Virus record (IMG/VR): IMGVR_UViG_3300046810_000153
Coordinates: 1 to 26,731 of that record
Strand: one strand, 5' to 3'
DNA from: a virus
Length of the DNA stretch: 26,731 bases
Position 1 is the first letter of the stretch. The number at the start of each line of letters is the position of its first letter. Both the position numbers and the translations under genes were made by a program. Under the pieces are notes generated by a model, which saw only the letters and a list, made by a program, of their open reading frames with translations, was not told where the DNA came from and ran no database searches. Of the stretch, positions 7,663-26,725 are shown piece after piece.

Positions 7663-9032
7663 TGATTGAAGCGATCGACCACGCGACAGACCTGGCCCTG
7701 AGCAAGGGCATTCGGGTACTGCAAACCGGCTTTGTGGGTGGCAGCCAGGCTGCGCACGTCGCGAACCTGCTGGAATGGCTGGACCCCGAGCCCTACGCGC
7801 ACATCATCGACGCCGGTTGCGGTGTGGGGGAGGTGGCCAAGCTCATGCATGCCGCACGCCCCGACCTGACCTTTGACCTGGTGAACATCAGCGAGCACCA
7901 ACTGGGCCATGCGCCCATGGGCGAGGCGTTCACGCATTGCCTCGGTGACTTCACGCGCAACAAGCTACCCAGCGAATGCGCCGACGTGGTGATGTTCAAC
8001 AGCGCACTGTGTCAGATGCCGATCAATCAGGCCTTGAGCGAAGCCCGGCGCCTGCTGAAACCGGATGGCGTGCTGTTTGTGTGCGACCTGTCGATTGCCG
8101 AGTACCGGGAGTTTCCCGAGTTTTACGCAACCTTCATGTCGGCCTACGAATGGGAAGACGTGATTACGCGCCATGGCTTCGAGCACACGAAAACCGTGCT
8201 CCAAGACGGCGACATGACGCACTTTGCCGGCGAATTTGAGGACTTCGAGCAGTCTTTGCCCGATGCCCTGGTGTACATCGCGCAGTTCCGCAAGCAGGAG
8301 CCGGGCGAACATATGGAAGCGGTGCTGGATCGGCACCAGCGCATTGGATTTCAATTCAGCGGGGGCAAGGACTCGCTCGCGGCGCTGCTACAGGTCCGGC
8401 AACACTGGTCACGGATGACCGTCTATTGGACGAACACGGGCGACCCGGTGCCGGAGGTTCAGGCGGTGGTCGATCGTGTGCGCGCCGTGGTGCCGCACTT
8501 TGTCGAGATTGCCGGGCGCGTGAAAGAGCAGATCGCCGAGTATGGCTTGCCGTCCGACCTGATGCCGACCACTTCGACGTTGTTGGGCCTGCGCGATGCC
8601 GGGGGCACGATCGCCCTGCAAGACCGGTTCACCTGCTGTTATCACTCGCTGATGAAGCCTATGCACGATCGCATGAAGGCTGACGGCGTGACGCTGATCA
8701 TTCGCGGGCAGAAGAGCGCCGACCGGATGAAGTCGCCGCTACGTTCCGGGGCTTTGGATGACGGTGTGGAGCTGCTGTTTCCGCTGGAGCACTGGACCGA
8801 TGCCGAAGTGTTCGTGTACCTGGAGGCGAACTCCTTTGTGCCCGACTTCTATCAGCACCTGGCCGCGTCACCCGATTGCCTGACGTGCTCCGCGTACTGG
8901 AACGAAGGCCGCGCCTACTGGTTACACACCGCGCACCCCGAGGCCTATCAGGTGTACCAGGAGAAGCTGGACATCATCCGGGAGGCGGTGATGCCGCACA
9001 TTGCCCTATTCAATTTGGAGGTCAGCACATGA
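7662..9032 (+). CDS. SAM-dependent methyltransferase fused to a PAPS-reductase-like ATP pyrophosphatase
   Basis: 456 residues. Residues ~25-200 form a class I methyltransferase (motif I DAGCGVGE at 50-57; NSALCQMPINQALSEARRLLKPDGVLFVCDL at 113-143), close to small-molecule methyltransferases. Residues ~218-450 are a CysH-like domain with the PP-loop SGGKDS (233-238), RGQKSADR (348-355) and HWTDAEVFVYL (377-387). Cysteines 325-326 (CC) and 406/409 (CLTC) reproduce the [4Fe-4S] cluster motif of assimilatory APS reductases. The C-terminal catalytic cysteine of those enzymes (ECG-H tail) is absent, so sulfonucleotide reduction by the usual route is unlikely; activation by ATP for a sulfur- or nucleotide-transfer step is more likely (inference). 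The ORF is continuous across both domains; an internal start at Met218 cannot be excluded. It lies between two internal virion protein genes, which is an odd place for a metabolic enzyme. Confidence 0.85.
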   Translation: MIEAIDHATDLALSKGIRVLQTGFVGGSQAAHVANLLEWLDPEPYAHIIDAGCGVGEVAKLMHAARPDLTFDLVNISEHQLGHAPMGEAFTHCLGDFTRNKLPSECADVVMFNSALCQMPINQALSEARRLLKPDGVLFVCDLSIAEYREFPEFYATFMSAYEWEDVITRHGFEHTKTVLQDGDMTHFAGEFEDFEQSLPDALVYIAQFRKQEPGEHMEAVLDRHQRIGFQFSGGKDSLAALLQVRQHWSRMTVYWTNTGDPVPEVQAVVDRVRAVVPHFVEIAGRVKEQIAEYGLPSDLMPTTSTLLGLRDAGGTIALQDRFTCCYHSLMKPMHDRMKADGVTLIIRGQKSADRMKSPLRSGALDDGVELLFPLEHWTDAEVFVYLEANSFVPDFYQHLAASPDCLTCSAYWNEGRAYWLHTAHPEAYQVYQEKLDIIREAVMPHIALFNLEVST

Positions 9033-10333: not shown

Positions 10334-13300
10334 GTGGCAGAAAACCTCTTTCTCAAGACGCCGACAACCGCTACTGGTTCGGTGCCCGTCGCGCCCCCGG
10401 TCCCTGAATTCAACTTTTCCAGCCGGCGTTCCTCCCCGGATGCTGGGGGTATGCCCAGTGCGGCTGCCAGCCTGTCCCAAGGCATGCTCCCCCCGCCTGA
10501 CCTGCAACCGCTCTTCGAGCAAGCCTCGTCGACCTACGGCGTGCCCATCAACGTCTTGGCGGCACTGGCGCAGCAGGAATCGAGTTACCGCGCCGATGCC
10601 GTGGGTGTCGATACCAAGTGGGGCAAGGCCAAAGGCCTGATGCAATACATCGACCCGACCGCGAAGGGCATGGGCATCAATGCCATGGACGCCGCGCAGT
10701 CGATCGATGCCGCCGCCAAACAGTTCAAGGACCGCTTGGACAAAGGCTATACGGTGCAAGAGGCGATCGCCGCGCACCATGGCGGCGATGACCGCGCCCA
10801 GTGGGGACCGAAGACCGCCAAGTACGTTCAGGACGTCATGGGCAAGGCCGGCACCATCGATCAGGAAATGACGGCCGGCAAGATTCTGAGCGAGGCGCAG
10901 AACCAGCAGGACATCCCCGGCCTGCAAGCGCAAGCCGACGCCGAAGAGCCCGGCCGCTACAAGGTGATGACCGAAGCCGACGCCGCGCATTACATCAAGC
11001 GCCAAGACTTGGCCAGCGGCAAAGGTGCGCTGGAGAACGCGAAGAACGCCATCGGCGGGTATGACGCGCCGTCGCCGCTGACGATCCCGATTCAGCAGCG
11101 CGCTGAAGAGCTGGTGAACGGGCAACAACCGCCGTCGCCGCTGACTGTCACCAATCAGGCGCGTGCGAAGGCTGGCTTTGGGCCGCGTGACGACCTGCCG
11201 CCTGATGACTTCATGGCGGCCACCAGCAAGCAGTTGCAGAACTTCGGGCCGCACATGCGCAACGCCGTGGGCGGCATGATCCGCTCCTACGGCGAACAGG
11301 TGGACGACCAGACCCTGGTGTCCAACGCACAGAACGCCGGCATCATCGATCGCATGAAGGACAGCGGCGCCCTGACCATGGTTCAGGACGAGCGCGGTAA
11401 CTTCACACCGACCCTGCCGGACGGCAAACCGGCCGATGTTTCCGCCATGGCGGCCTACATCCGCCAGAACGCCCCGGACCTGATGACCCCGGACGAAGCC
11501 GGCACCATGCTGGGCATGAAGCCCAACGAAGTGTCGGCCTACGGCCGCAAGATGAGCAAAGAGGCGCGCCGCGACGAGCTGAAGGTGAACCCGGACGGGC
11601 CGCTGGCCAAGTACGGCAGCATGATCATCGGTTCGACCGCCGAAATGGCCCCGGCGATCCTGACCGGCATGGTGACGCGCAACCCGAAACTGGCGCTGTC
11701 GATGATTGGCGGCCAAGTCTATGGCCAGAGCTACAACGAAGCGCGGGGCAAACTGAACCCGCAGGATGCCGCGACCTACGCGATTTTGCAGGCCGCCGCC
11801 GAGGCGATCCCGGAAGCCTTGCCGCTTCATTACATCCTCAAGCCCGGCGTGAACATCTTCAAAGGCATGCTCAAAGCCGGCACCGCCGAGGCCTTGCAGG
11901 AAGAGTTCACCCAGCTCATCCAGACCGGTCTGGACAAAGGTTCGATCAACCCGAACATGACCTGGGAAGAGGCGCGTCAGCAACTGATCGACGCGCCGAT
12001 CGTGGGTTTTGGCTCCGGTGCGGCCATGCATGCCGGTGCGCAAGGCTTGCAGAAGGGCGCCGAGGCGCTGAAAAGCCCGGGCGCCAAGTTGGGCGACGTG
12101 CTCAACGATGAGGTCAACCGGACTGATATTTCTGGTGGCACCAGTGAAGAAGCGGTGCGCCGCCTCGATCCGAACAACTACCAGGGCGAGCAGACCGGCC
12201 CCGGTGAACAGGTGTGGAACCCGGGCGAAAAACCAGCGCCTGGCCCGGTCGGTTCGCTGGCCCACGCTGCCAGTCTGGCCACGCAAAGCCAAGACGCGCA
12301 GCGCGTCACCGTGCAAACCCCGACCGGTCCCGTCACCGGCACCCTCGAATCGTATCAACCCGGGCAGAAAGATTCGTGGGAAGCCCGCGTGCTCTCCGAC
12401 GATGGCCAGTATTACCACTACACCGACAAGGACGGCGTGACCATCACGCCGGAAGGTCCGGCGCCTGGCGAAACACCGCTGGCCAGCGAGCCGGCCGCCG
12501 ATGAGCAACCGATGGCCAGCGACACGCTGAGCCCCTTCGAGCGCAACCAACTGCGCGCTGCCGGCTACGACGATGATCAACTGGGCGCGATGACGGACGA
12601 AGAGGGCCAACAAGCCCTGTGGCAGATGGAGCTGGACGGCTCGCACATTCCGACACTGACCGATGAGGTGGACATTCCCACCCTGACCGACCGTGTGGAC
12701 GGCCCGATTCCAACCCTGACCGACGTTGTGAAAAAGGGCGTGGACATTCCGACCCTCACGGACGTCGTGAAGCCTGGCCCGATCCCGACCCTCACGGATG
12801 TCGTGAAAAAAGGTGTGGAAATCCCCACCCTTCACGATGAGGTGGAAGTCCCGACGCTGACGGACGTGGTGGAAAAGGGTGTGGAAATTCCGACCCTGAC
12901 CGAGGAAGTGCCGACCCTGAAGAACGTGGTCGCGCCGCCCGGCACCCCGGACTACACGGCGATGGACTTCCCGCAGTTGCGCGCCGCACTGAAGGAAACC
13001 GCCGCCGACATCAAGGTTGCGCCGAAAAACGCCTCTCTCCAGGTGAAGCGCAAGGCGATTGAAAAGGCGATCCTCGCCAAGTCGAAAGAGGTGGCCAAGC
13101 CCGTCGAGCCGGCAAATGCCGAGGCACAACCGGCAAATGCCGAGGCACAACCGGCAAATGCCGCTGAGCCCGTGGCGAATGTGGCGAAAGCGGCGAAAAC
13201 CGAAGAGACGACCAAGCCCGTCAAGTGGTTTGGAAGCCGCGCCAAGGCCGAAGGCTACATCTTCGCCAAAGACATGCGCGACACCCATGAAGTGGTCGAC

Positions 13301-16300
13301 GTGGGCAAGTCGCGCTTTGAAGTGCGCGAAATTGGCCAGGCTGAGCCGGTCGAGGCTGAACCGGCCGGCAAGCCGGACTCCCGTGCGGAGCGCAGAAAGC
13401 TGCCTTCGGCGGTAGAGGGTGAATTGCATACGGCACTTCACACGCTGAACATGGCCGAGGAACGCCTAAAGCGTGCGTTCAGGGCACGCGGCAAAGATGA
13501 TCCGGTGGTTCAGGCGTTGGTGGAAGAGTTGCGCCCCGGCATTGCCAAGGCCCGCGAAACCCTGCGCAAGGTCGAGCGCAGCGCAGTCGAAAGCGGCGCC
13601 GACTACAACAAGGTGCTCGCTGAAACCGATGGCGTACCCGACCTGTCGGCTTATGGCCTCGATGATAGTCCTGCCGAAGCAGCCCCTGAAGCCAAGCCGG
13701 TCGAAGCCGCCCCCGCCGTGGAAAAGGCCGCCGCCAAAACCCCACAGCAGAAGGCCAAAGTCCTCAAGGCCAAGCGCCAAGAGGAAACCCGCGTCACGCT
13801 GGGCGTGAAGGAAGGCGAGAAGTTCACCATGTCGGCCGACGTCGGCTATGCCACGGCCGGGCGCACCTACACCCTGGACACGATCGGCAGCGATGGTGTC
13901 GCCTACGTCAGCGGCGAAGGCGGCAGCACCACCAACCTGTCGCGTGCTGACCTGATCAGCGCCGTCAACAAAGGCGTGACCTTCAGCAAGATCGGCGAGG
14001 CCAGCAACACCGAGGCTGAGAAACCCAAGGCGCCAGTCAGCACCGCGCCCGAGCATGCCCATGTCGGTGTCGACGATCGCGAGCTGGGCGAGATTGTGGC
14101 CGAGTTCGACGCCGCGCTGGAGGAATCGCAAGATCCCGACGACCAGGTACATCACCTGTTCGACGCGCCGGCCAAAAACGAAGTGGTACGCCTGAAGGAC
14201 AAGGCGATGGTCTACCAAAAGGACCACGGGTGGATGACGCTGGACGAGGCCAAGGCGCAAATTGCCGAGTGGAAGGCGCACACCAACGCGCAATACGACG
14301 ACCAAGACAGCCGTATTGCCAACAGCGAGCGGGTGGTGTTGTCGTTCTTTGACCTGTCGGGCAAGTGGTCGCAACCATGGGAAGAGGCCGGTTATCAAGT
14401 CTACCGGTTCGACATCCAGGACGACCCGGTAATGGGCGACGTTCACAATTTCTCGACCGAGTTTTTCAACGACTGGTTTGGCAACTTCGAGGGCCAGGAC
14501 GTCTACGCCATTCTGTCGGCCAACCCTTGCACTGACTTTGCTGTGTCGGGAGCGCGCCACTTTGCCGCCAAGGATGCGGACGGGCGCACCGTCGCCTCGG
14601 TCAAGTTGGTTCACCAGACCTTGGCCGCGATCGAGTATTTCAAGCCGGCGATTTGGGCGATTGAAAACCCGGTCGGGCGCATCGAGAAACTGGGCAGCCT
14701 GCCGCCTTGGCGCCTGTCGTTCGACCCGTACCACCTGGGCGACCCCTACACCAAGAAGACCTTGATTTGGGGCCGCTTCAACGCGGACCTGCCGGTTGCC
14801 CCGGTGGAGCCTACCGAAGGCTCGAAAATGCACAGCCAGTACGGCGGCAAGAGCATCGCCACCAAAAACGCGCGCAGTGCGACCCCGGAAGGTTTCTCCT
14901 ACGGCTTCTTCATGGCCAACAACGCCATTGATAACCCGGTCATGGCGATCAGCAACAAATACGATCGTCTCGACCCCGACGCGATCGCGGGTGCTGTCGA
15001 CGCCGGCATGACCGAGCAAGACATCGATGAGGTGGTGGAAGACTTCTACTACCAAGACCTCGACGACGCGGCCGCCAATGAGGCGCTGCGCGAAGCCACC
15101 GCCGAGCGCACCGACGAGGATGTCGAAGACGCCGAAGTGGTTGAACCGGCCGAAGCGCCGGCCGCTGAGCCTGAACCGGGCGACCTGATTGGCCAGGAAA
15201 TCGAGAAGGCCAAGCAGCGCATGATGCGGCTGCGCCGTGAAGGTGCTGATCAGACCAAGTTGCTTGCCGCAGAAACCCGCTTGCGCAAAATGCGCACGGC
15301 CGCCGTTCAAGCGGACGACTGGATCGAGGCCGCCCGTGCGGGTGATGAAAGCGCACTGGCCAAGCTGGAAGAGGCCGGTTTTATCGACACGGCCGACGCC
15401 TTGCGTGCCGAGCCGAAGAGTAAGACAGCCCTGCTGGCCGAGCTTAAAACCGAACTTGGCGCCTTGGCGGATCGCGCCATGGATGCCGGCCAAGGCAAGA
15501 TGTCTGGCCAGCTTCGCGGCTTTACGCTTGGCATGAAGGCTACCGATAGCAACCTGTCTCGCGCTTGGGTAGACGAGGTAGTGGCCGATTCCAAAAAGCG
15601 CGTAGAGCGGGCAGAGAAAGCGAGCGCCAAGACCAAACCGGAGAAAGCGCCGGCACCGGCACCGAAGAAAGGCCCGAAAGCGCTGGGCAAAAACAGCGAC
15701 GGCAAGGTGGTGTTCGAGGACGAGAACGGCGTGCGTTCCGTGGCCGACAGCGGTGTTCGCATCGAAGAGAAGGTGACGCTGCGCCCGACCCGCGCCGGCA
15801 TGCAGGTATCGATCGAGGACCGCGAAGACCGGTTCAAGACCACCGAAGAGCTGGCCGCCGAGCAGGCGCAAGCAGCGCCGGCAGAAGCGCCGAAGCCGGT
15901 CGAAAACACGATTTTCACCGAGGACGCCGCCGCCAAGGCCCGCGCCATCCTGAAAGCCAAGCTCAACGGCTCGCAGTTGAACAGCGGGATCGACCCGGAA
16001 ATCTTGCAGGCAGGCATTACGCTGGCCGGCTACCATATCGAAAAAGGGGCGCGCTCCTTTGCCGCTTATGCCAAGGCCATGGTCGAAGACCTGGGCGACG
16101 TGGTAAAACCGTACCTGAAGTCGTGGTACATGGGCGTTAAATACGACCCGCGTGCCACCGGCTTTACCGGCATGAGCAGTGCCGGCGACGTGGAAGACTT
16201 CGACGTCGATGCCGTTAACACCGATGAGGCAACACCTGATGACATCAGCACAGCTAAGGCAGATGGTTCTGCAAATGCTGACGGACAGCAACCCGACGAC

Positions 16301-19300
16301 CGTCAAGCGGATGGAACGAGCGGGAACACTGGTGCCGTTGGTAAACGGCCTGATGGCGGACTACGCGGAGAGCGTGGAGAGCGCCCGGCAGATGGCGCTA
16401 AGCCAACAAGCGGGAAATCGCGACCTGGACAAACTGAACTACCAGTTTCAGACGATTCCCGAAGTGGCCCTGCAACAGGTGCAAGAGCGGATCAACGCAA
16501 CTACCGGATTCAGCCAGGCGAGCTGAAGCGCACCGGTTCGTGGAAAGCCACGGCCGAGCAGAACGTCAAAATCGTTGAGCTGGTCAAGCAGATCCTGAGC
16601 GAGAATCGCCAGGCCACGCCTGAAGAAAAGGCACTGCTGACCAAGTTTACCGGCTGGGGCGCCTCGGAAATCGCCAACGGCGTGTTCCCCGACAAGTACG
16701 GTCGCTACAAAGACCCGAGCTGGCAAGCGCTGGGCGAACGCCTGAAAGCGGCGATGACCCCGGAAGAATACGCCCAAGCCCGCCGTTCGACCCAATACGC
16801 GCACTACACCAGCGAGCCCATCATCCGCAGCGTCTACGCCGCGCTTGATCGCCTTGGCTTCAACGGTGGCCAAGTGTTGGAGCCGGGCATGGGTATCGGC
16901 CTGTTCAACGGCCTGATGCCGGACGCGATCGCCAGCAACAGCTCCTACACGGGTGTCGAGTACGACACCTTCACCGGCAACATCGGCAAGTTGCTGTACC
17001 CGCAAAGCAACATCCTCATCGGCGATTACGCGCAGACCAAGTTGCCGCGTGACTTCTTCGACGCTGCGATCGGCAACCCGCCATTCAGCCAGACCAAGGT
17101 TCAGGGCGACCCCGAGTACCGCAAACAAGCGTTCTTGCTCCATGACTACTTCTTTGCCAAGACCATCGACCGCGTGAAACCGGGCGGCCTGCTGGTGTTC
17201 GTCACCAGCAAGGGCACCATGGACAAGGCCAGCGATCGAGCGCGCAAGTACCTGATGGAACGGGCCGACCTGGTGGGTGCGATCCGCCTGCCGCAGACCG
17301 CGTTCAAGGACAACGCCGGCACCGAAGTGGTCACGGACGTGATTTTCCTGCGCAAACGCGACACCGACGAGTTGCCGCTGGGCAAGGAGTGGGGCGGCCT
17401 CGCCGAAGTGCCGACCGCGCAAGGCCCGGCGATGGTCAACCAATACTTCGCCGCACACCCGGAAATGGTCCTCGGCCGTCACGCCAAGACCGGCAGCATG
17501 TACCGTGCTGACGAATACACCGTGGAGCCGATCGAGGGCGGCGACATCGAGCAGCAGTTCGCCAAGGCGATCGAGAACCTGCCGGAAAACATCTACCGGC
17601 CACCACAAGGCAGCCCGGCCGAAGCGGCCGCCGTGCAACGTCGCGACTACGACCCGAAAATCAAGAAGGAAGGCGGGGTATACGTCGCGGACGACGGCAC
17701 GCTGATGCAAGTCAGCAGTGGCCAAGGTACGCCGCTGGTCAATCGCATGGGCAGCAACGGCCAGGACATCGACCTCAAACCGCGTGAAGTGGAGTGGTTG
17801 AAAGGCTGGGCCGGCGTGCGTGATGCGCTGAAACAGGCGCAATACGACCAGTTGAACGACGGCCCGTGGGAGAAGTCGCTGAAGGCCTTGAACAAGACCT
17901 ACGACGCCTTCACCAAAACCCACGGCCCGCTGATGTCGCACACCATCAGCGAGCGTGAGAGCGAGAACGAAGACGGCACCGTCACCACCACCGTCATGCG
18001 CCGCTTCAAGAATGACCCGTTGATTCGTCTGGATGTCGAGGGGCCGCTGGCTTCTGCCCTGGAGAACTACGACACCGAGGGCAACATCAGCAAGGCGCCG
18101 GTCCTGCTTGGTCGCACCATCAACAAGCCAAGCGCGCCGACCATTACCAGCACGCAGGACGCGATGTTTGTCTCGCTCAACGATCTTGGCCGCTTTGACC
18201 TGGCGCACGTCGCCAAGTTGGCCGGCAAGACCGAGGCCGAAGCCATCGACGAGCTGGGTACGGCGATCTATCAAGACCCGTCTGCCGGCTGGACAACGGC
18301 CGACGACTACCTGTCGGGCAACGTGCGCCGCAAACTCCATGAAGCCGAAGCCGCGGCGCGCCTGAACAAGGACTACGCACGCAACGTTGAGCCGTTGAAG
18401 AACGTGCAACCGCGTGCCTTGGCCCCGCAGGACATCACCGTACAACTGGGCTCCGCATGGGTGCCACCGACCGACATCGAGAACTTTGCCGCCGAAGTCA
18501 TGGGCGAGAAGTACAGCATCCGCTACCTGCCGAAGGCGGCGCAGTGGACCGTCGACGGTGCGTCAAGCCGTGTCTCGGAGTGGGGCACGGGTGACAAGAA
18601 GTCGGGTGACATCCTCGAAGGCGTGTTGAACAACCGCCAGATGAAGGTCACGTACAAGGACGCGGAAGGCAAGACCCACACCGACGCCGAAGGCACGGAG
18701 AAGGTCAACGACATCGCCAAGAAACTGCGCGCCGAGTTCAAGCGCTGGATTTGGAAGGACAAGCACCGCGCTGACCGGCTGGCCACCTACTACAACGAAA
18801 ACTACAACAACATCGCGCCGCGTGAGTTCGACGGCAGCCACCTGACCCTGCCCGGCGTGTCGGCGCGCTTTAACTTGCGTCCGCACCAGAAGCGCGGCAT
18901 CTGGCGCACCATTCAGCAGGGCGACACCTACTACGCGCACGCGGTCGGTGCCGGCAAGACCTTCACCATGATCGCGGCCGGCATGGAAGAGCGCCGCCTG
19001 GGCTTGTCCAAGAAGCCGATGTACGTGGTGCCCAACCATATGCTCGCGCAATTCTCCAAAGAGTTCCTGGAGCTGTACCCGACTGCGCAGATCATGGTCG
19101 CGGATGAACAGAATTTTCACACCAACAACCGCCGCAAGTTCGTCGCGCAAGCGGCCTTGAACGACCCGGACGCGATCGTTATCACCCACTCGGCCTTCGG
19201 GCGCATTGGCATGAGCCCCGAGTTCAGCCAGCGCTTTATCACCGAGCAGATTGACGATTGGAAAGCGGCACTGGACGAGGCCGACAAGAGCGATCGTGTC

Positions 19301-22300
19301 ACCGTCAAACACATCGAGGCGGCCATCGAGCGGCTGGAAAACCGCCTGAAGAAGATCATTGCCGGCGAAGACAAGGACAAGGTGCTCAACTTTGAAGACC
19401 TGGGCGTGGACCGCCTGTTTGTCGACGAAGGCCATGAGTTCCGCAAGCTGGATTTCCCGACCAATCGCGGCAGCGTGAAGGGCATCACGTCCAAAGGTTC
19501 GCAGCGCGCCATGGACCTGTACATGAAGGTCAGCCACCTGCGCGAGAAAAACCCGGGGCGTGCCCTGGTGATGGCTTCGGGTACGCCCGTGACCAACACC
19601 ATGGGCGAGCTGTTCACCGTGCAACGCTTCTTCCAGCCGGAACAACTGGAAGAAGACGGCGACGGCACCTTTGACGCATGGGCCAACCACTACGGCGAAG
19701 TCGTGGACGGCTTGGAGCAGAACGCGGCCGGGGGCTATGAATCGGTGGCCCGCTTCGCCAAGTTCATCAACGTGCCGGAACTGATGAGCCGTGTCCGCTC
19801 CTTCATGGACATTCTCACCAGCAACCAACTGGGCGACCTGGTGGTGCGCCCCGACGTCGAGGGCGGCGGCCGCAACATCATGGTCACGCCGACCCCGGAC
19901 GGTTACAAGGCCTACCAAAAAGACCTGGAAAACCGGATCAAGGCCATCCGCGCACGCAAAGGCCCGCCAAAAGCCGGCGACGACATCATCCTGAGCGTGA
20001 TTTCGGACGGGCGTTTCTCGGCGATCGACATGCGCTTTGTTGATCCCAAGTTGCCGAGCGACCCGAACAGCAAGCTGAACGTGGTTATCGACAACATGAT
20101 CAAGGCCTACCACGACACGGCCAGCAACCAATACAGCAGCAACGGCAAGGTTGACGAGCTGCCGGGCGCCTCGCAAATGCTGTTTGTCGACATCGGGTTG
20201 GGCGAGCAGTCGGCCGAGAATCGCGGCTTCGACATGAAAGCCTGGATCAAGCGGCGCCTGATCGAGGGCGGCGTGAAGGCGGATCACATCGCGTTCATGC
20301 GCGACAACAAAGCCCACTCGAAAAAGGAACGGCTGTTTGACGACCTGCGTTCGGGCCGCAAACGCATTCTGATTGGCGGCAAGGACATGGAAACCGGCGT
20401 CAACGCGCAAAAGCGCCTGAGCCACCTTCACCACCTGGACGCGCCATGGTTCCCGGCGTCCGTCGAGCAGCGCGAAGGGCGGATCATTCGCCAAGGCAAC
20501 CAGAACCTCAACGTCAACATCAATGCCTACGCCTCGAAGGGTAGCTACGACTCGACGATGTGGGGCATGAATGCCCGCAAGGCGCGCTTCATCGAGCAGG
20601 CCATGACCGGCGATACCAGCCTGCGCTCCATGGATGACGTCAGCGAAGCGAGCGCCTTTGAAATGGCCGCCGCGCTGGCTTCGGGTGATGAACGCTACCT
20701 GCAACTGGCCGGGCTCAAGGGCGACGTGGAACGCTTGAACCGCCTGTACTCGGCGCACATCGATGACCAACGCCGCCTGCGCACCGAGAAGATGGGCACC
20801 GAATCGACCCTCAAGCACAACACCCAGCAGGTGAAGGCGCTTCAGGACGCGATCGACAAGCGCGAGCCGATCAAGGCCGGCGAGTTTGCCGGGAAAGTGG
20901 GCAAAACCACCTACGACAAGCGCGACGAGTTCAGCGTGGCCTTGCACAACGAGTTCAAGGCGCTGGCCGAGTCGTACACCCCGGGCGAGCAGGTGCTGGG
21001 CAGCATCGGCGGTTTCCCGATCCTGTACAACGGCGTGGAGCTGCGCGGGGGCAACTTCGCCGCTGATGCGTCGATCGACGTTGCCGGCAACCCTGACCCG
21101 TTGATTGTGTTCCCGATCGAGCCCAACGCCGCTATCAACGGGATTGCCACCCGTGCCGCTAACCAGGTGAACGGCCTCGAATACCAGATGAGCCGGCGCA
21201 AAGAGCAGATGGCCGAGGCCGAGGACAAGCTGAAGAAGATCGATCGCCGGTTGGGCGCAGCGTTCCCGGAAATGAGCGAGCTGGCCGAGAAGCGCGAACA
21301 ACTGCAAGACCTGGAAAGCGAGCTGGAAGCCGAAAGCAAGGCCAACGCGGCCGCCGAATCGGCCGGTGCCCCGGTGCCCGGCAGCGAAATCGCCGGAGCG
21401 GTGAACCCTGCCGCGAAAATGTCGGTGCGTGAAGACCTGCCGGCGACACCAGAGAGCACGGGCGTGCGCGAAGCAATCACTCGAGGCGAGTTTGGCCCGC
21501 AAGTGCGCAAGCTGATCGATGCTGGGCAGGTGGTTATTCATGACACCGAGAAAACCTTGCCAGCGTCTGCCGGCAAGGTCAGCGGCATTCAGGCCGTGAC
21601 CACTCCCGATGGGGTTGTCCATCTGGTGGCCAGCAACCTGACGCCGGCCACAGCCCCGGGCGTGTTGCTCCATGAAATGTTCCACAGCGGCGCCAAGTCC
21701 CTACTCGGCACGCCACGTTGGAACGCGATGATGAATCGTTTGGACGCTTTGCTGCGCCAGGCCAAGCAATCGACCGGCAAAGCCCGCAATGTCTATGACC
21801 GGGCCGCCGAGCGTGTCGCCAAGGCCCAAGCGCGTGGCGCTGTGCCGGCTGACTTGACGGCTGAAGAGTTCGGCGCCTACGCGATCGAGGAATACGAGAA
21901 GCTGCCGGCCGCGTTCAAGAAGTGGGCCGACGACGTGGTGGGCATGCTCAAACACTGGCTCCTGAATCGCTTCGGCCTGCAAGCGGGCCGCGTGACCCCG
22001 GGGCAACTGCGCGCCCTGGCCGTTGACGCTTTGCGCTCCAAGGTCGCCGAGCAAACTCACGAAGATTCAGTGATTCCAGATCCTCGCTACTCCGTGCTGT
22101 CGGACAACACCGCCTTGGCCGATGCCACGGCCGCGCTGACCGCGCCAAAGCAGATCAAGCCGGACGCCATCGGGCAATTGAGTGACGACATCGGCCGCGT
22201 GGCGAAGTTTGTCCTTCACCCTCGCCAGATCGCGTCCTTGCACAAGCCTTTCACGCCGGTCTACAACACCGCGATCCAACAGTTTGAAATGCGTGATGCG

Positions 22301-25075
22301 CTGATCGATGAGCTGCAACGCGACCACAAGGCCTATGACCTGCTGCCACAGGCGAGCAAAGCCAAGGTCAACGCCGTGCTGGAGCTGGGCCGCCTGTACA
22401 ACGCGACCTACCACGACAAGGCGCTGAAAGCCGGCATTGCCCACACCGGCACCAAAACCGTGGTCAAGAAGGACGAGGACGGCAAGCCGTACCGCGTGCA
22501 AGAGCCGGTACAGGCGCTGCTGTCGGTGCGCGGCGAAGTGCATAAGCTCAACGACGCTGAAGTCGAGGCGTACCTGGGCTTGCGCGATATGTTCGACAAC
22601 GCCCTGGACAAGTTCCGCGATCAAACCCTGACCGACTTCGGTTTCCCGGAACTGGCGGGCATGAAAAACCCGTCTGAAGCGCTGAAGGCCATGATCACCC
22701 CGGATATGTCGCCGCTCAAGCAAACCCGCATCGAAGGCGTGGCGCGCTTTATTGGGGAGATCGAGCAAGCCAAGCGTGGCGGGTACGTGCCGTTTGCCCG
22801 CTACGGCGATTACGTGGTCGCGGTCAAGGAACAAGAGCTGCCGCTGAACCTGATCAAGGACACGTTCAACGGTGGTTGGATCACCCGCGACCTGCCCAAG
22901 GCGTACCACCAGTTCCTCGAAGACCTGGGCGCCAAGTACGACAACTCGGAAGAGGGCTACCGCCTCGATGAGGCCCAGCGCAAGGCGCTGATCGGCGAGA
23001 ACGAGAAGACGGTACACAGCACCAAAGTGGAGTTCACGCTGAAAGACAAGGCGCTGATCAAGGCCGGGCGCCCGGTGCAAGAGCTGCCGAGCGTGAAAAA
23101 AGCGCTGGCCGATGCCGAGAAAATGAAGGAGGGCAAGCCGAACCGGCGCGTGGTGGCGTTTGAAGCGATCCAGAAACAGCCTGACGGCGGCGTGAAGTTG
23201 GCTGATGTCGACGCGCTGGCCGAGGTGGCCATGCTGGACACTGACACTTGGGATGCCGTGCGCGAGCAGTTGGGCGATGCGATCAAGGGCCGCTCGTTCC
23301 GCAAACACTTCTTCCAGTCCGACAACGTACCCGGCTACACCGGAGACTTTGAACGGGCGATCGCCGACTACATGGCCGGCATGTCCGGCTACCTGGCTCG
23401 CCGGCACTACAACAACGCATGGGACAACGCGCTGACCAAGGTCAAGGCGCCGCGCCTGTTCGACTACGCGAGCAAGTACCGCGCCTACGTCAACGAGCCG
23501 CATGAAGAGCTGGCCATGCTGCGCCAAGTGGGTTTCCTCTCCTACATCGCGGGTGTGCCGGCGACGGCATTTGCCAACCTGACCCAACCGCTCCTGCTGA
23601 CGCTGCCGGTGCTGGGCCAGATTGCCCCGCAGCACCTGGTCATGCGCGAAATGGCCCGGGCGTACAAAGATGCCCTGGCCATGGCCCGTGTGAACAAAAA
23701 GACCGGCTTGGACTTCTTCGACCCGGACGCCGCGCCGGCTGACCTCAAAGGCACCCTGCGCGAGGCGTGGGCCGAGGGCATGTTCGTGCCGCTGCAAACC
23801 TACGAGGTCATGGCCACCGCCCGTACCGGCAACGCCAAGGGCCGGAAACTGGCTCGCCGGTTTAACAAGGTGGTGGAAGCCACGGCCGCGCTGTTTTCCT
23901 TTGCCGAACGCTTGAACCGGCTGGTCACGTTCATGACGGCGGCTCGCTTGTCCCAGCGCCCGGCCGTCAAAGCCAACATGCAGAAGGTCTACGGCAAAAA
24001 CCCGCTGGCCAAGGCCATGATGCGCAACTGGAGCGCCAAGGCACTGGGCGAGTTCATGATTGATGAAACCCAGTTCCGCATGGGCAAGGCCAACCGGCCG
24101 GTGGTGTCGCGTGGTGTCGGCTCTGCGCTCATGCAGTTCAAGGGCTTCATGATGCAATCGCTGGAAACCTGGTTCCGTCTGGCCACGCAAAACGGCAAGC
24201 AAGGCGTTAAGGCCGCTGCGCTGTCGATTGGCCTGATGGCATTGCTGGGCGGGTTGTGGGGCATGCCCGGGGCCGACGACCTGCGCGACATCATCGAGAA
24301 GGTGTACAAGCAGATCACCAAGCAGGACTTGGACCTCAAGACCGAGTTGCGCCAGGCGCTGTACGAGCTGACCGGGCAGCGCTGGATTGGCGAAGTCGCG
24401 AGCAAAGGCGCGACCTATCCGTTCGGCCTCGACCTGTCGCGTATCGGCATGGGCAACATCGCGCCGGACAGTCCATTGCAGATGTTTGGTATCCCGGCAG
24501 ACCTGTTTATTGGGCGTGGCGGCCGGGCCTTTGAAAAAGGCTCGCACGGCGATTTACTCGGCGCCGCAGGGGAGTTCCTGCCGAACTTCCTGAAAAATCC
24601 GATCACGGCCTACGGCTGGAGCCAAGACGGCGTGCGTGACAGCGCGGGGCGGATGTCCCTCGGGGCTGACCAGATCGGTGCCGGCGAAGTGGCGTCCAAG
24701 GCTTTGGGCTTCCAACCCACGCAGATTACCAACGTGCGTGACTACGAGTACGCCCAACGGCGCATGGAAACCGCCAACGACAAGCTGAAGGCCGATTACG
24801 TGGCGCGCATTGCCAAGGCGATCGCCACTGCCGAGAAACACCCGGATAAAGCGGCCGAGGCGCAGGCTGAACTTGCAGAGATTAACCAGGAGCTGGAAGA
24901 GCGCAACGCGAACGCCACGCCAGAGAATCAAATTCTGCTAGGGCGCACGGCGATCAAAAATCGCATTCAGCGTGAAATGGGCGGTGTTGGGGAAACATGG
25001 GGTCATGAGCGCAAACAGGCACGGGGCGCTTCGGAGCAAATGCGCAAGGCGTTTGGGCTGAGCAAACCCGAATAA
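10334..25075 (+). CDS. Giant polyvalent phage protein (4913 residues): lytic transglycosylase, two DNA methyltransferases, SNF2 helicase and metallopeptidase-like domain
   Basis: One uninterrupted frame. Start GTG 10334 has GAGGG (10322-10326) seven bases upstream. Domains in order: SLT transglycosylase (~55-172); hydrophobic helical section (~430-590); nine [IV]PTL repeats (772-866) and Pro/Ala linkers; C5-cytosine methyltransferase (~1325-1530); a conserved helical module ending YLKSWYMGVKYDP (~1862-1940); a low-complexity linker; N6-adenine methyltransferase with NPPF (~2056-2330); SNF2-type helicase (~2855-3430); coiled coil (~3615-3680); HEMFH peptidase-like domain (3780-3784); and a C-terminal region with hydrophobic segments (~4398-4435, ~4625-4646). 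This matches the polyvalent protein concept of Iyer and colleagues (2017): virion proteins injected with DNA carry protective and host-targeting enzymes. The P1 DarB antirestriction protein has a similar methylase-helicase core. Likely role: a packaged protein that opens peptidoglycan and shields phage DNA from restriction (inference). It could be cleaved after translation. Confidence 0.92.
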   Translation: MAENLFLKTPTTATGSVPVAPPVPEFNFSSRRSSPDAGGMPSAAASLSQGMLPPPDLQPLFEQASSTYGVPINVLAALAQQESSYRADAVGVDTKWGKAKGLMQYIDPTAKGMGINAMDAAQSIDAAAKQFKDRLDKGYTVQEAIAAHHGGDDRAQWGPKTAKYVQDVMGKAGTIDQEMTAGKILSEAQNQQDIPGLQAQADAEEPGRYKVMTEADAAHYIKRQDLASGKGALENAKNAIGGYDAPSPLTIPIQQRAEELVNGQQPPSPLTVTNQARAKAGFGPRDDLPPDDFMAATSKQLQNFGPHMRNAVGGMIRSYGEQVDDQTLVSNAQNAGIIDRMKDSGALTMVQDERGNFTPTLPDGKPADVSAMAAYIRQNAPDLMTPDEAGTMLGMKPNEVSAYGRKMSKEARRDELKVNPDGPLAKYGSMIIGSTAEMAPAILTGMVTRNPKLALSMIGGQVYGQSYNEARGKLNPQDAATYAILQAAAEAIPEALPLHYILKPGVNIFKGMLKAGTAEALQEEFTQLIQTGLDKGSINPNMTWEEARQQLIDAPIVGFGSGAAMHAGAQGLQKGAEALKSPGAKLGDVLNDEVNRTDISGGTSEEAVRRLDPNNYQGEQTGPGEQVWNPGEKPAPGPVGSLAHAASLATQSQDAQRVTVQTPTGPVTGTLESYQPGQKDSWEARVLSDDGQYYHYTDKDGVTITPEGPAPGETPLASEPAADEQPMASDTLSPFERNQLRAAGYDDDQLGAMTDEEGQQALWQMELDGSHIPTLTDEVDIPTLTDRVDGPIPTLTDVVKKGVDIPTLTDVVKPGPIPTLTDVVKKGVEIPTLHDEVEVPTLTDVVEKGVEIPTLTEEVPTLKNVVAPPGTPDYTAMDFPQLRAALKETAADIKVAPKNASLQVKRKAIEKAILAKSKEVAKPVEPANAEAQPANAEAQPANAAEPVANVAKAAKTEETTKPVKWFGSRAKAEGYIFAKDMRDTHEVVDVGKSRFEVREIGQAEPVEAEPAGKPDSRAERRKLPSAVEGELHTALHTLNMAEERLKRAFRARGKDDPVVQALVEELRPGIAKARETLRKVERSAVESGADYNKVLAETDGVPDLSAYGLDDSPAEAAPEAKPVEAAPAVEKAAAKTPQQKAKVLKAKRQEETRVTLGVKEGEKFTMSADVGYATAGRTYTLDTIGSDGVAYVSGEGGSTTNLSRADLISAVNKGVTFSKIGEASNTEAEKPKAPVSTAPEHAHVGVDDRELGEIVAEFDAALEESQDPDDQVHHLFDAPAKNEVVRLKDKAMVYQKDHGWMTLDEAKAQIAEWKAHTNAQYDDQDSRIANSERVVLSFFDLSGKWSQPWEEAGYQVYRFDIQDDPVMGDVHNFSTEFFNDWFGNFEGQDVYAILSANPCTDFAVSGARHFAAKDADGRTVASVKLVHQTLAAIEYFKPAIWAIENPVGRIEKLGSLPPWRLSFDPYHLGDPYTKKTLIWGRFNADLPVAPVEPTEGSKMHSQYGGKSIATKNARSATPEGFSYGFFMANNAIDNPVMAISNKYDRLDPDAIAGAVDAGMTEQDIDEVVEDFYYQDLDDAAANEALREATAERTDEDVEDAEVVEPAEAPAAEPEPGDLIGQEIEKAKQRMMRLRREGADQTKLLAAETRLRKMRTAAVQADDWIEAARAGDESALAKLEEAGFIDTADALRAEPKSKTALLAELKTELGALADRAMDAGQGKMSGQLRGFTLGMKATDSNLSRAWVDEVVADSKKRVERAEKASAKTKPEKAPAPAPKKGPKALGKNSDGKVVFEDENGVRSVADSGVRIEEKVTLRPTRAGMQVSIEDREDRFKTTEELAAEQAQAAPAEAPKPVENTIFTEDAAAKARAILKAKLNGSQLNSGIDPEILQAGITLAGYHIEKGARSFAAYAKAMVEDLGDVVKPYLKSWYMGVKYDPRATGFTGMSSAGDVEDFDVDAVNTDEATPDDISTAKADGSANADGQQPDDRQADGTSGNTGAVGKRPDGGLRGERGERPADGAKPTSGKSRPGQTELPVSDDSRSGPATGARADQRNYRIQPGELKRTGSWKATAEQNVKIVELVKQILSENRQATPEEKALLTKFTGWGASEIANGVFPDKYGRYKDPSWQALGERLKAAMTPEEYAQARRSTQYAHYTSEPIIRSVYAALDRLGFNGGQVLEPGMGIGLFNGLMPDAIASNSSYTGVEYDTFTGNIGKLLYPQSNILIGDYAQTKLPRDFFDAAIGNPPFSQTKVQGDPEYRKQAFLLHDYFFAKTIDRVKPGGLLVFVTSKGTMDKASDRARKYLMERADLVGAIRLPQTAFKDNAGTEVVTDVIFLRKRDTDELPLGKEWGGLAEVPTAQGPAMVNQYFAAHPEMVLGRHAKTGSMYRADEYTVEPIEGGDIEQQFAKAIENLPENIYRPPQGSPAEAAAVQRRDYDPKIKKEGGVYVADDGTLMQVSSGQGTPLVNRMGSNGQDIDLKPREVEWLKGWAGVRDALKQAQYDQLNDGPWEKSLKALNKTYDAFTKTHGPLMSHTISERESENEDGTVTTTVMRRFKNDPLIRLDVEGPLASALENYDTEGNISKAPVLLGRTINKPSAPTITSTQDAMFVSLNDLGRFDLAHVAKLAGKTEAEAIDELGTAIYQDPSAGWTTADDYLSGNVRRKLHEAEAAARLNKDYARNVEPLKNVQPRALAPQDITVQLGSAWVPPTDIENFAAEVMGEKYSIRYLPKAAQWTVDGASSRVSEWGTGDKKSGDILEGVLNNRQMKVTYKDAEGKTHTDAEGTEKVNDIAKKLRAEFKRWIWKDKHRADRLATYYNENYNNIAPREFDGSHLTLPGVSARFNLRPHQKRGIWRTIQQGDTYYAHAVGAGKTFTMIAAGMEERRLGLSKKPMYVVPNHMLAQFSKEFLELYPTAQIMVADEQNFHTNNRRKFVAQAALNDPDAIVITHSAFGRIGMSPEFSQRFITEQIDDWKAALDEADKSDRVTVKHIEAAIERLENRLKKIIAGEDKDKVLNFEDLGVDRLFVDEGHEFRKLDFPTNRGSVKGITSKGSQRAMDLYMKVSHLREKNPGRALVMASGTPVTNTMGELFTVQRFFQPEQLEEDGDGTFDAWANHYGEVVDGLEQNAAGGYESVARFAKFINVPELMSRVRSFMDILTSNQLGDLVVRPDVEGGGRNIMVTPTPDGYKAYQKDLENRIKAIRARKGPPKAGDDIILSVISDGRFSAIDMRFVDPKLPSDPNSKLNVVIDNMIKAYHDTASNQYSSNGKVDELPGASQMLFVDIGLGEQSAENRGFDMKAWIKRRLIEGGVKADHIAFMRDNKAHSKKERLFDDLRSGRKRILIGGKDMETGVNAQKRLSHLHHLDAPWFPASVEQREGRIIRQGNQNLNVNINAYASKGSYDSTMWGMNARKARFIEQAMTGDTSLRSMDDVSEASAFEMAAALASGDERYLQLAGLKGDVERLNRLYSAHIDDQRRLRTEKMGTESTLKHNTQQVKALQDAIDKREPIKAGEFAGKVGKTTYDKRDEFSVALHNEFKALAESYTPGEQVLGSIGGFPILYNGVELRGGNFAADASIDVAGNPDPLIVFPIEPNAAINGIATRAANQVNGLEYQMSRRKEQMAEAEDKLKKIDRRLGAAFPEMSELAEKREQLQDLESELEAESKANAAAESAGAPVPGSEIAGAVNPAAKMSVREDLPATPESTGVREAITRGEFGPQVRKLIDAGQVVIHDTEKTLPASAGKVSGIQAVTTPDGVVHLVASNLTPATAPGVLLHEMFHSGAKSLLGTPRWNAMMNRLDALLRQAKQSTGKARNVYDRAAERVAKAQARGAVPADLTAEEFGAYAIEEYEKLPAAFKKWADDVVGMLKHWLLNRFGLQAGRVTPGQLRALAVDALRSKVAEQTHEDSVIPDPRYSVLSDNTALADATAALTAPKQIKPDAIGQLSDDIGRVAKFVLHPRQIASLHKPFTPVYNTAIQQFEMRDALIDELQRDHKAYDLLPQASKAKVNAVLELGRLYNATYHDKALKAGIAHTGTKTVVKKDEDGKPYRVQEPVQALLSVRGEVHKLNDAEVEAYLGLRDMFDNALDKFRDQTLTDFGFPELAGMKNPSEALKAMITPDMSPLKQTRIEGVARFIGEIEQAKRGGYVPFARYGDYVVAVKEQELPLNLIKDTFNGGWITRDLPKAYHQFLEDLGAKYDNSEEGYRLDEAQRKALIGENEKTVHSTKVEFTLKDKALIKAGRPVQELPSVKKALADAEKMKEGKPNRRVVAFEAIQKQPDGGVKLADVDALAEVAMLDTDTWDAVREQLGDAIKGRSFRKHFFQSDNVPGYTGDFERAIADYMAGMSGYLARRHYNNAWDNALTKVKAPRLFDYASKYRAYVNEPHEELAMLRQVGFLSYIAGVPATAFANLTQPLLLTLPVLGQIAPQHLVMREMARAYKDALAMARVNKKTGLDFFDPDAAPADLKGTLREAWAEGMFVPLQTYEVMATARTGNAKGRKLARRFNKVVEATAALFSFAERLNRLVTFMTAARLSQRPAVKANMQKVYGKNPLAKAMMRNWSAKALGEFMIDETQFRMGKANRPVVSRGVGSALMQFKGFMMQSLETWFRLATQNGKQGVKAAALSIGLMALLGGLWGMPGADDLRDIIEKVYKQITKQDLDLKTELRQALYELTGQRWIGEVASKGATYPFGLDLSRIGMGNIAPDSPLQMFGIPADLFIGRGGRAFEKGSHGDLLGAAGEFLPNFLKNPITAYGWSQDGVRDSAGRMSLGADQIGAGEVASKALGFQPTQITNVRDYEYAQRRMETANDKLKADYVARIAKAIATAEKHPDKAAEAQAELAEINQELEERNANATPENQILLGRTAIKNRIQREMGGVGETWGHERKQARGASEQMRKAFGLSKPE
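10496..10849 (+). other. Domain: SLT-type lytic transglycosylase (giant protein residues ~55-172)
   Basis: The region reads PLFEQASSTYGVPINVLAALAQQESSYRADAVG, in which E82-S83 is the catalytic Glu-Ser pair of SLT domains. It is followed by GLMQYIDPTA (101-110; family consensus GLMQ) and AHHGGD (147-152), which takes the place of the usual AYNAG, with a late Tyr (Y164). The domain would cut peptidoglycan during genome entry, as internal virion transglycosylases do. Its N-terminal place in a virion-type protein is typical. The replacement in the AYNAG motif is mild and should keep the fold. Confidence 0.85.
11621..12103 (+). other. Domain: hydrophobic helical region of giant protein (residues ~430-590)
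   Basis: Residues 430-470 run MIIGSTAEMAPAILTGM, then a short polar hinge, then LALSMIGGQVYGQSYNEAR. They are followed by helices QDAATYAILQAAAEAIPEALPLHYIL and TAEALQEEFTQLIQTGLDKG, and a glycine-rich end (IVGFGSGAAMHAGAQG). Small residues (Gly, Ala, Ser) dominate and two segments are hydrophobic enough to insert into a membrane. Similar sections occur in polyvalent and tape-measure-like ejected proteins, where they may form a membrane passage. Function here is inferred from composition only. Confidence 0.45.
12647..12931 (+). repeat. Nine-copy [IV]PTL(T/H)(D/E/N)xV peptide repeat inside the giant gene
   Basis: Residues 772-866 hold nine copies of a short unit: IPTLTDEV, IPTLTDRV, IPTLTDVV (three times), IPTLHDEV, VPTLTDVV, IPTLTEEV (shared boundary) and VPTLKNVV. 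Spacers of 1-5 residues are often KKGVD/E or a single acidic residue. At DNA level copies diverge in third positions, so the array is old or kept by selection at protein level. The unit would form an extended or beta-strand array and is probably a spacer or a binding array. I do not recognise it as a named domain. Confidence 0.8.
13109..13163 (+). repeat. 21-bp tandem repeat encoding PANAEAQ units
   Basis: Two identical 21-base units (13109-13129 and 13130-13150) and a partial third (13151-13163) encode PANAEAQ-PANAEAQ-PANA. Because the unit is a multiple of three the frame is kept, and near-perfect DNA identity points to recent slippage. It lies in a Pro/Ala-rich linker between the PTL-repeat section and the next folded part of the giant protein. 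Copy number may vary between related elements. Confidence 0.85.
14306..14923 (+). other. Domain: C5-cytosine DNA methyltransferase (giant protein residues ~1325-1530)
   Basis: VLSFFDLSG (1336-1343, with D1340 in the SAM motif I), WEEAGYQVYRFDIQDD (motif II), ANPCTDFA with P1398-C1399 as catalytic motif IV, and AIENPVG with E1444-N1445-P1446 as motif VI are all in the correct order and spacing. LGDPYTKKTLIWG follows as in phage Dcm-like enzymes. There is no obvious long target recognition domain or QRR motif VIII, so specificity may be relaxed or may depend on a neighbouring part of the polyprotein. The likely product is 5-methylcytosine in the phage DNA, protecting it from restriction. Confidence 0.85.
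16239..16526 (+). CDS. Nested out-of-frame ORF (95 codons) inside the giant gene
   Basis: ATG 16239 is preceded by GAGG (16226-16229) with nine bases between, and the ORF runs in the +1 frame relative to the giant gene. The product (TSAQLRQMVLQMLTDSNPTT..., LDKLNYQFQTIPEVALQQV) reads like a compact helical protein rich in Gln, Leu and Met. By my hand count about 70 of its 95 codons end in G or C. In the same stretch only about 32 of 87 giant-gene codons do, although the giant gene is strongly G/C-ending on both sides. The giant frame here encodes a low-complexity Gly/Arg/Asp/Pro linker. This is the pattern expected of a real gene overlapped by a linker. The family is not recognised; expression is unproven. 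Confidence 0.6.
   Translation: MTSAQLRQMVLQMLTDSNPTTVKRMERAGTLVPLVNGLMADYAESVESARQMALSQQAGNRDLDKLNYQFQTIPEVALQQVQERINATTGFSQAS
16499..17323 (+). other. Domain: N6-adenine DNA methyltransferase, DarB-like (giant protein residues ~2056-2330)
   Basis: The domain starts NYRIQPGELKRTGSW and includes LTKFTGWGASEIANGVFP, which is characteristic of the DarB-type methylase region. SAM motif I is LEPGMGIGLF (2182-2191). The catalytic motif is NPPF (2248-2251), followed by VKPGGLLVFVTSKGTMDK and VGAIRLPQTAFKDNAGTEV. NPPF/NPPY enzymes methylate exocyclic amino groups, usually N6 of adenine. Fused to a helicase this resembles P1 DarB, which protects DNA from type I restriction in cis after injection. Target sequence unknown. 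Confidence 0.85.
18896..20623 (+). other. Domain: SNF2/SF2-type helicase-like ATPase (giant protein residues ~2855-3430)
   Basis: Motifs in order: LRPHQKRGIW (Q-motif region), Walker A VGAGKT (2871-2876), MYVVPNHMLAQFSKEFLELYP (motif Ia), VDEGH (D3031-E3032-G3033-H3034, motif II), SGTPVTN (3082-3088, motif III), and EQREGRIIRQGNQN (motif VI, starting around E3378). All catalytic elements are present. DNA translocation with the linked methyltransferase would allow fast modification or displacement of host restriction complexes from entering DNA (inference from DarB-like architecture). A Lys/Glu-rich helical section follows. Confidence 0.88.
21431..22063 (+). other. Domain: HExxH metallopeptidase-like (giant protein residues ~3700-3910)
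   Basis: The core is VVHLVASNLTPATAPGVLLHEMFHSGAKSLLG with H3780-E3781-M-F-H3784, a zincin motif that places two metal ligands and the catalytic Glu. The third ligand is not certain; candidates lie in the following helices, such as EEFGAYAIEEY. The domain follows the helicase and a coiled coil. It may release domains of the polyprotein or cleave host proteins after injection. Metallopeptidase-like domains are known in polyvalent proteins. Confidence 0.65.
23501..24313 (+). other. Domain: hydrophobic C-terminal part of giant protein (LPD38-like)
   Basis: Residues ~4390-4660 contain LSYIAGVPATAFANLTQPLLLTLPVLGQI, SALMQFKGFMMQSLETWFRLATQ and AAALSIGLMALLGGLWGMPG, with hydrophobic segments separated by amphipathic helices. 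I recall this pattern from the C-termini of large polyvalent proteins (possibly Pfam LPD38), but I cannot confirm the number. It may anchor the protein to the inner membrane or to the internal core of the virion. Confidence 0.45.
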
Positions 25076-25245: not shown

Positions 25246-25446
25246 CTATGCGTCGTTGTGCGCGTCCAGTTGCGCGGCGACCCACGCCTGAACTGCCGCC
25301 GAGTCCCAGCCAACGGCATGCGCCCCAGCGATGCGAACACCCTTGGGAAACCGGCCTTCTTTGATCAGGTTGTAGATTTTGGTGCGACCCAAGCCAGTTG
25401 CGGCTTTGACGTTTGGGAGACGCCAAATCACTCGCTGTGCTGTCAT
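25246..25446 (-). CDS. AlpA-family DNA-binding regulator / excisionase-like
   Basis: 66 residues. The sequence WRLPNVKAATGLGRTKIYNLIKEGRFPKGVRIAGAHAVGWDSAAVQAWVAAQLDA is a clear MerR-like winged helix of the AlpA family. KAATGLGRTKIYNLIKEGRFP is the helix-turn-helix with its wing, and VGWDSAAVQAWVAAQL is the conserved closing helix. AlpA proteins act as transcription activators of integrase genes or as excisionase-like regulators on prophages and plasmids. The start ATG has AGGGA upstream (11 bases, through an eight-A run). It is transcribed in the same direction as the rep gene, 112 bases downstream of it. No integrase is visible in the window, so a regulatory role in replication or the phage switch is the main inference. 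Confidence 0.85.
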   Translation of the reverse strand: MTAQRVIWRLPNVKAATGLGRTKIYNLIKEGRFPKGVRIAGAHAVGWDSAAVQAWVAAQLDAHNDA

Positions 25447-26675: not shown

Positions 26676-26725
26676 GGCGGTGTGTAATGTACGACTACGG
26701 ACGCAAAGGCGGTGTGTAATATACG
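26676..26725 (+). repeat. Two iteron-like direct repeats, edge of a probable replication origin
   Basis: GGCGGTGTGTAATGTACG (26676-26693) and GGCGGTGTGTAATATACG (26708-26725) agree in 17 of 18 bases. Their starts are 32 bases apart, about three helical turns, so both face the same side of the DNA. Direct repeats of this size behind a rep start are the usual signature of iteron-controlled plasmid origins. The window ends six bases after the second copy, so more copies and the AT-rich opening region may lie outside. Confidence 0.7.

Follow-up and report, generated by a model that had tools for sequence, protein, structure and literature searches.

The Dar proteins of phage P1 are packaged, are co-ejected with the phage DNA and shield it in cis from type I restriction; their mechanism is debated in the literature, and physical obstruction has been proposed (PMC12707154, PMC12810830). 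Iyer et al. 2017 proposed that, in polyvalent proteins, a motor-coupled N6-adenine methyltransferase (N6 MTase) modifies the DNA as it enters and that the proteins themselves are processed by zincin domains (PMC5512222). In phage JC1, mass spectrometry of CsCl-purified virions identified 51 unique peptides of gp69, a homologue of the protein described here (PMC9144972). POI1126, a phage of the same group, persists as a plasmid, and its DNA gave EcoRI and EcoRV digests as predicted for unmodified DNA (PMC5492332).

Here we analyse a 26,731-bp viral contig, the whole of which we call the window, and the giant protein that it encodes. The kind of protein is already known: it is a DarB-like polyvalent virion antirestriction protein of Bcep22-type podophages. 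The less usual part is an extra C5-cytosine methyltransferase (C5) domain, which is, judging from how its sequence is distributed, a cassette swapped among giant proteins and some bacterial plasmids.

The giant gene and its genomic setting

The frame of the giant gene (Table 1) has no internal stop, and GAGGG lies about 9 nt 5′ of its start codon. An independent contig of 61,279 bp (IMGVR_UViG_3300046458_000047) encodes the protein at full length (residues 1–4913, 96.9% identity; 91.7–97.5% DNA identity to the window in aligned blocks), so the giant gene is not an assembly artefact. Giant open reading frames (ORFs) of 3,400–6,300 codons are also present in dozens of contigs and in named phages.

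One named phage has a different annotation at this gene. The record of Pseudomonas phage Itty13 (L003, MW460249) shows three antisense frames (on the minus strand of the locus) across positions 11579–22837, and the opposite strand has an unannotated frame, 4,112 codons or more in length, that is homologous to the giant. The Itty13 record is probably misannotated here.

Upstream of the giant gene are genes for SU10-type adaptors, a GP4-type fibre and adaptor (gp80/gp77) and virion structural proteins. The gene therefore sits after the virion genes and before rep, in a late and structural gene context; polyvalent proteins are characteristically encoded in such a context or next to genes for conjugation. 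The rep product is a plasmid-type initiator that is kept in a relative contig, and the iteron-like repeats upstream of rep have a counterpart at the equivalent site of that contig, where 21-bp iteron copies stand in tandem (L095:9293-9424). A plasmid replication initiator and iterons within a phage genome are the features expected of a POI1126-like phage-plasmid. Because of this initiator, these repeats and the plasmid persistence of POI1126, the window probably derives from a phage-plasmid.

Two further frames deserve mention. Positions 7662–9032 (+) encode a 456-aa protein in which a class I methyltransferase (Methyltransf_11, E=2e-10) is fused to a PAPS-reductase domain (E=2.7e-7); at the equivalent place JC1 has a PAPS reductase alone (PMC9144972). 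Between the giant gene and rep, a short frame (25246–25446, −) encodes a product that by eye resembles DNA-binding proteins of the AlpA/excisionase type.

Table 1 Features of the window
Feature	Position	Strand	Details
Giant polyvalent (DarB-like) protein gene	10334..25075	+	4913 aa, GTG start; phrog_10089 E=0
SLT lytic transglycosylase domain	10511..10795	+	Residues 60-154; QES 81-83, GLMQ 101-104; Pfam PF01464 E=3.5e-11
Tandem (PIPTLTDVV)-type repeats	12645..12836	+	TRF; between SLT and C5
C5-cytosine DNA methyltransferase domain	14318..14941	+	Residues 1329-1536; PC 1398-1399, ENP 1444-1446; phrog_757 E=3.5e-42
LPD36-like GxGU motif, then N6-adenine methyltransferase	16559..17713	+	GWGA, residues 2107-2110; NPPF at 2248; Eco57I PF07669 E=7e-6
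SWI2/SNF2-type SF2 helicase/translocase	18725..20803	+	GAGKT 2872, DEGH 3031, QREGRIIRQG 3379; Helicase_C E=3.7e-6, ResIII, SNF2-rel
Putative zincin-like metallopeptidase domain	21521..22093	+	HEMFH 3780-3784, downstream E3845
PLxRFG C-terminal domain	23246..24925	+	Residues 4305-4864; NF032893 E=1.6e-61, above cut-off
Replication initiator protein A (RPA), plasmid type	25559..26608	-	PF10134 E=1.3e-60; kept in relative contig
Iteron-like direct repeats GGCGGTGTGTAATRTACG	26676..26725	.	Upstream of rep gene

Domain architecture

Like other polyvalent proteins, the giant joins unrelated enzymatic domains in one very large chain. From N to C terminus these are SLT, a repeat linker, C5, an LPD36-type GWGA motif, N6 MTase, SNF2 helicase, a zincin-like HEMFH region and PLxRFG. 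A first-pass annotation had read the SLT, C5, N6 MTase, SNF2 helicase and HEMFH elements in this single frame and had linked the protein to DarB and to polyvalent proteins. Pfam and PHROGs matches and conserved catalytic residues bear out the domain reading, to which the PLxRFG C terminus can now be added, and the kinship is confirmed by homology to P1 DarB and by the match of the MTase–helicase core to phrog_10089 (‘DarB-like antirestriction’, E=0). The catalytic residues of the motifs PC, ENP, NPP[FY], GKT, DE.H and QR.GR..RQG show almost no variation, or none, among the homologues.

The E, S, G and Q residues of the SLT domain are 100% conserved in six homologues, and a search of PDB sequences shows that the region resembles the phage gp41 tape measure protein 9b45 (E=4e-8). 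Between SLT and C5, the PIPTLTDVV-type repeats are accompanied by a second in-frame tandem repeat at positions 13109–13163, made of PANAEAQ units. Both are probably flexible or disordered spacers.

The core combines the elements that define DarB-like proteins: the GxGU motif of LPD36, as described by Iyer et al. (PMC5512222), an N6 MTase of the EcoKI/TaqI type with NPP(Y/F), and a SWI2/SNF2 helicase. A phmmer search with this core gave no match among PDB sequences.

The HEMFH region is a putative zincin-like peptidase domain. Its HExxH motif and downstream Glu (H81, E82, H85 and E146 of the aligned segment) are invariant in 24 homologues, and DUF6782, a putative metallopeptidase family, weakly matches three homologues of the region. 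An AlphaFold2 (AF2) model of the region (pLDDT 72) has a helix/three-strand/helix topology and no Foldseek match in the PDB at E<=0.001, zincins included; the corresponding profile retrieved nothing useful from PDB sequences. Structure prediction for individual domains, which the first-pass annotation had put forward as a check, agrees with its reading of the C5 domain (below) and gave no structural confirmation of the peptidase.

Identity and selection of the C5 domain

PF00145 matches the window protein alone below the cut-off (E=0.0011), and all 39 of 39 homologous C5 domains, with a best value of 1.5e-8. Foldseek pairs an AF2 model of the domain, built on the homologue alignment (pLDDT 85.5, pTM 0.87), with M.HaeIII and M.HhaI (E=7.1e-5, probability 1.00, TM ~0.42) over about 195–200 columns of enzymes of 324–327 aa. 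A search of PDB sequences with the C5 profile returned just chance matches to GCN4 and coiled coils, and the identification rests on Pfam over the homologues together with Foldseek. The catalytic Pro-Cys and ENP are invariant in about 40 divergent homologues, and the domain has the features that define its class, a class I MTase fold with the catalytic Pro-Cys and EN(V/P). On this profile and model evidence, the C5 domain is a genuine cytosine-methyltransferase domain. In C5 enzymes a large target-recognition domain lies between motifs VIII and IX. Here only about 48 residues separate the motif VIII-like GDPYTKKTLIWG from FFMANN, whereas the recognition domain of M.HhaI is much larger.

Comparison of C5 homologues with the window gives dN values mostly of 0.13–0.25, and dS is near saturation. 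Because dN is low while synonymous sites are near-saturated, the domain is under purifying selection.

Distribution and exchange of the C5 domain

More than 30 giant ORFs, among them those of Pseudomonas phage 8P and a circular Massilia plasmid, contain the C5 domain; it is absent from the giant homologues of JC1, Skulduggery and POI1126. Phage 8P alone, of 50,697 cultured phage records, has a close embedded copy; approximately 1,430 others contain more distant C5 relatives, which among the matches listed are separately annotated short genes. The 41 C5 loci recovered from IMG/VR lie almost all within giant frames. Bacterial giants with an embedded C5 are found on an 87-kb plasmid of Massilia violaceinigra and in Janthinobacterium and Xenophilus. 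Free C5 enzymes, of about 360–410 aa, are found on Pseudomonas, Cupriavidus and Acetobacter replicons, and some of the plasmids are conjugative.

On the conjugative P. putida plasmid pIEC33019 (L114:743-4181), a stand-alone C5 relative lies near a replication initiator protein A gene, an arrangement that echoes the C5-giant/RPA neighbourhood of the window.

The first-pass annotation had suggested that the exact domain order may be special. The order C5, N6 MTase, helicase is shared by phage 8P, the Massilia plasmid and around 19 giants among the fetched loci, and SLT, C5, N6 MTase, helicase and peptidase are found together in two loci (L037 and L098). Because the combination recurs in 8P, on the Massilia plasmid and in numerous viral contigs, a unique architecture is ruled out.

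In the 19 giants that have all three domains, identity in the N6 MTase is strongly correlated with identity in the helicase (Spearman 0.91), whereas C5 identity shows no relationship to that of the N6 MTase or the helicase (Spearman −0.09 and 0.00, respectively), in a test that is weakened because similarity in C5 was the criterion for picking most loci, and this compresses the range of C5 values. Pairs such as L047 and L043, with 96% identity in C5 and 29% in the helicase, are independent of that selection. Because C5 is uncoupled while the N6 MTase and helicase diverge together, we interpret C5 as a swapped cassette, and not as the fixed part of a single device that had been envisaged for it. 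In giants for which BLAST finds no MTase–helicase dyad, C5 stands beside InPase, ART-PolyVal, RadC, ddrB-ParB, MuF-C and LPD domains. These domains are hallmarks of polyvalent proteins.

Recent transfer can be ruled out as the cause of the high C5 identity in pairs formed with the window (the near-identical contig L039 apart), because synonymous sites are near saturation despite the high protein identity. Embedded and free forms are poorly resolved in the C5 tree, which has four label changes and may be compatible with a single origin.

In their main text, Iyer et al. 2017 list no cytosine MTase among the domains of polyvalent proteins; the word is present once, in a reference title (PMC5512222). 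We found no description of a C5 MTase in polyvalent proteins, or of its swapping, in the open-access literature, where absence is not proof.

Proposed role of the giant protein

We propose that the giant belongs to the DarB-like polyvalent virion proteins and comes from a temperate podophage of the Bcep22/POI1126 type, which is probably a phage-plasmid; we give this reading, including the following course of action, a probability of about 0.72. The protein would be expressed late and incorporated in or on the virion, as its JC1 homologue is; the JC1 peptides also lend support to the packaging assumed in the first-pass annotation. At infection the N-terminal SLT domain would help to open the peptidoglycan during ejection, and the giant, or pieces freed by its own metallopeptidase domain, would enter with the DNA, by analogy with P1 Dar and the polyvalent family. 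The SNF2-type motor would translocate on the incoming DNA, which would be shielded in cis from type I restriction by the coupled N6 MTase and by physical occlusion, in the manner suggested for P1 DarB. C5 would be an accessory cassette whose cytosine methylation widens protection to restriction systems that are blocked by m5C. The swapping of C5 cassettes between giants and plasmids would plausibly match them to the restriction systems of current hosts.

The digests of POI1126 DNA count against simple methylation, but the POI1126 homologue has the N6 MTase–helicase core without C5, and two enzymes sample few sites.

An alternative is that methylation takes place not after entry but in the producing cell or in the lysogen, where phage or plasmid DNA would be marked before packaging, and that the virion location serves mainly the transglycosylase and structural roles. 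Stand-alone plasmid relatives of C5 work without a virion, and methylation of a whole genome during entry would be a race against restriction. Against this, both activities are fused to a protein that is packaged in a homologous phage, P1 Dar is effective solely in cis on packaged DNA, and POI1126 virion DNA appeared unmodified with two enzymes. We consider action in the producing cell unlikely, although a serious contender.

The debate over the Dar mechanism, and the physical obstruction proposed for it, would also fit a protein whose C5 and N6 domains no longer modify DNA and persist as DNA-binding modules while coating or occlusion protects. However, PC, ENP and NPP[FY] are kept across some 40–60 divergent homologues and C5 has a low dN relative to its near-saturated dS, and we judge the loss of both activities improbable. 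The idea that genes were fused by sequencing error, or that the frame is a chance one in GC-rich DNA, has a negligible probability: long antisense frames (826–1045 aa) do overlie the gene, as is frequent in GC-rich coding DNA, but they show no gene-like signs, and the intact orthologue and the many giant ORFs of other contigs and phages refute it.

We tentatively suggest a more specific role for C5, while holding it to be less likely than not: the C5 MTase may be a previously unlisted hub domain of polyvalent proteins, an in-frame cassette that is exchanged between otherwise unrelated giants and plasmid enzymes, is carried in the virion and methylates cytosines of the incoming DNA within moments of entry. 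Should C5 be active in the injected giant, DNA modification would arrive with the virion, and which cassette is chosen would be predictable from sequence. The pattern of swapping allows one to ask directly whether giant virion proteins are put together as toolkits that counter host restriction, and the domain connects phage entry proteins with plasmid cytosine methyltransferases.

Comparison with known systems

P1 DarB is a packaged antirestriction protein of 2,255 aa with a homologous MTase–helicase dyad. Its residues 91–288 align with the N6 MTase (30% identity) and residues 784–1621 with the helicase, the local matches covering residues 2157–2352, 2798–3176 and 3332–3490 of the window protein (30%, 25% and 30% identity, respectively). 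DarB has no match to the SLT, C5, metallopeptidase or PLxRFG regions.

The Burkholderia Bcep22-type phages (JC1 gp69, DC1 and BcepIL02) share the SLT domain, the N6 MTase (COG0827/COG4646-type), the SNF2 helicase and the zincin-like domain, as well as the late-gene position, and their core is 60–65% identical to that of the window protein. The N-terminal half and the C terminus of these homologues are strongly divergent, and JC1 gp69 is shorter (4,515 aa versus 4,913 aa) and lacks C5.

The 5,145-aa ‘structural protein’ of Pseudomonas phage 8P has C5 (52–57% identity), N6 MTase, helicase, peptidase-like and PLxRFG-like regions in the same order, but its core is just 38–39% identical and BLAST finds no SLT domain in it. 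Massilia violaceinigra WP_099883082 (5,555 aa, PLxRFG) is encoded in a phage-like late-gene setting on the 87-kb circular plasmid. BLAST detects neither SLT nor peptidase in this protein, whereas identity reaches 84% in C5, 50% in the N6 MTase and 53% in the helicase. The stand-alone plasmid C5 MTases, exemplified by WP_015272388 of P. putida pIEC33019, are free enzymes of about 360–410 aa outside any virion protein, and their C5 sequence is 72–80% identical to that embedded in the giant.
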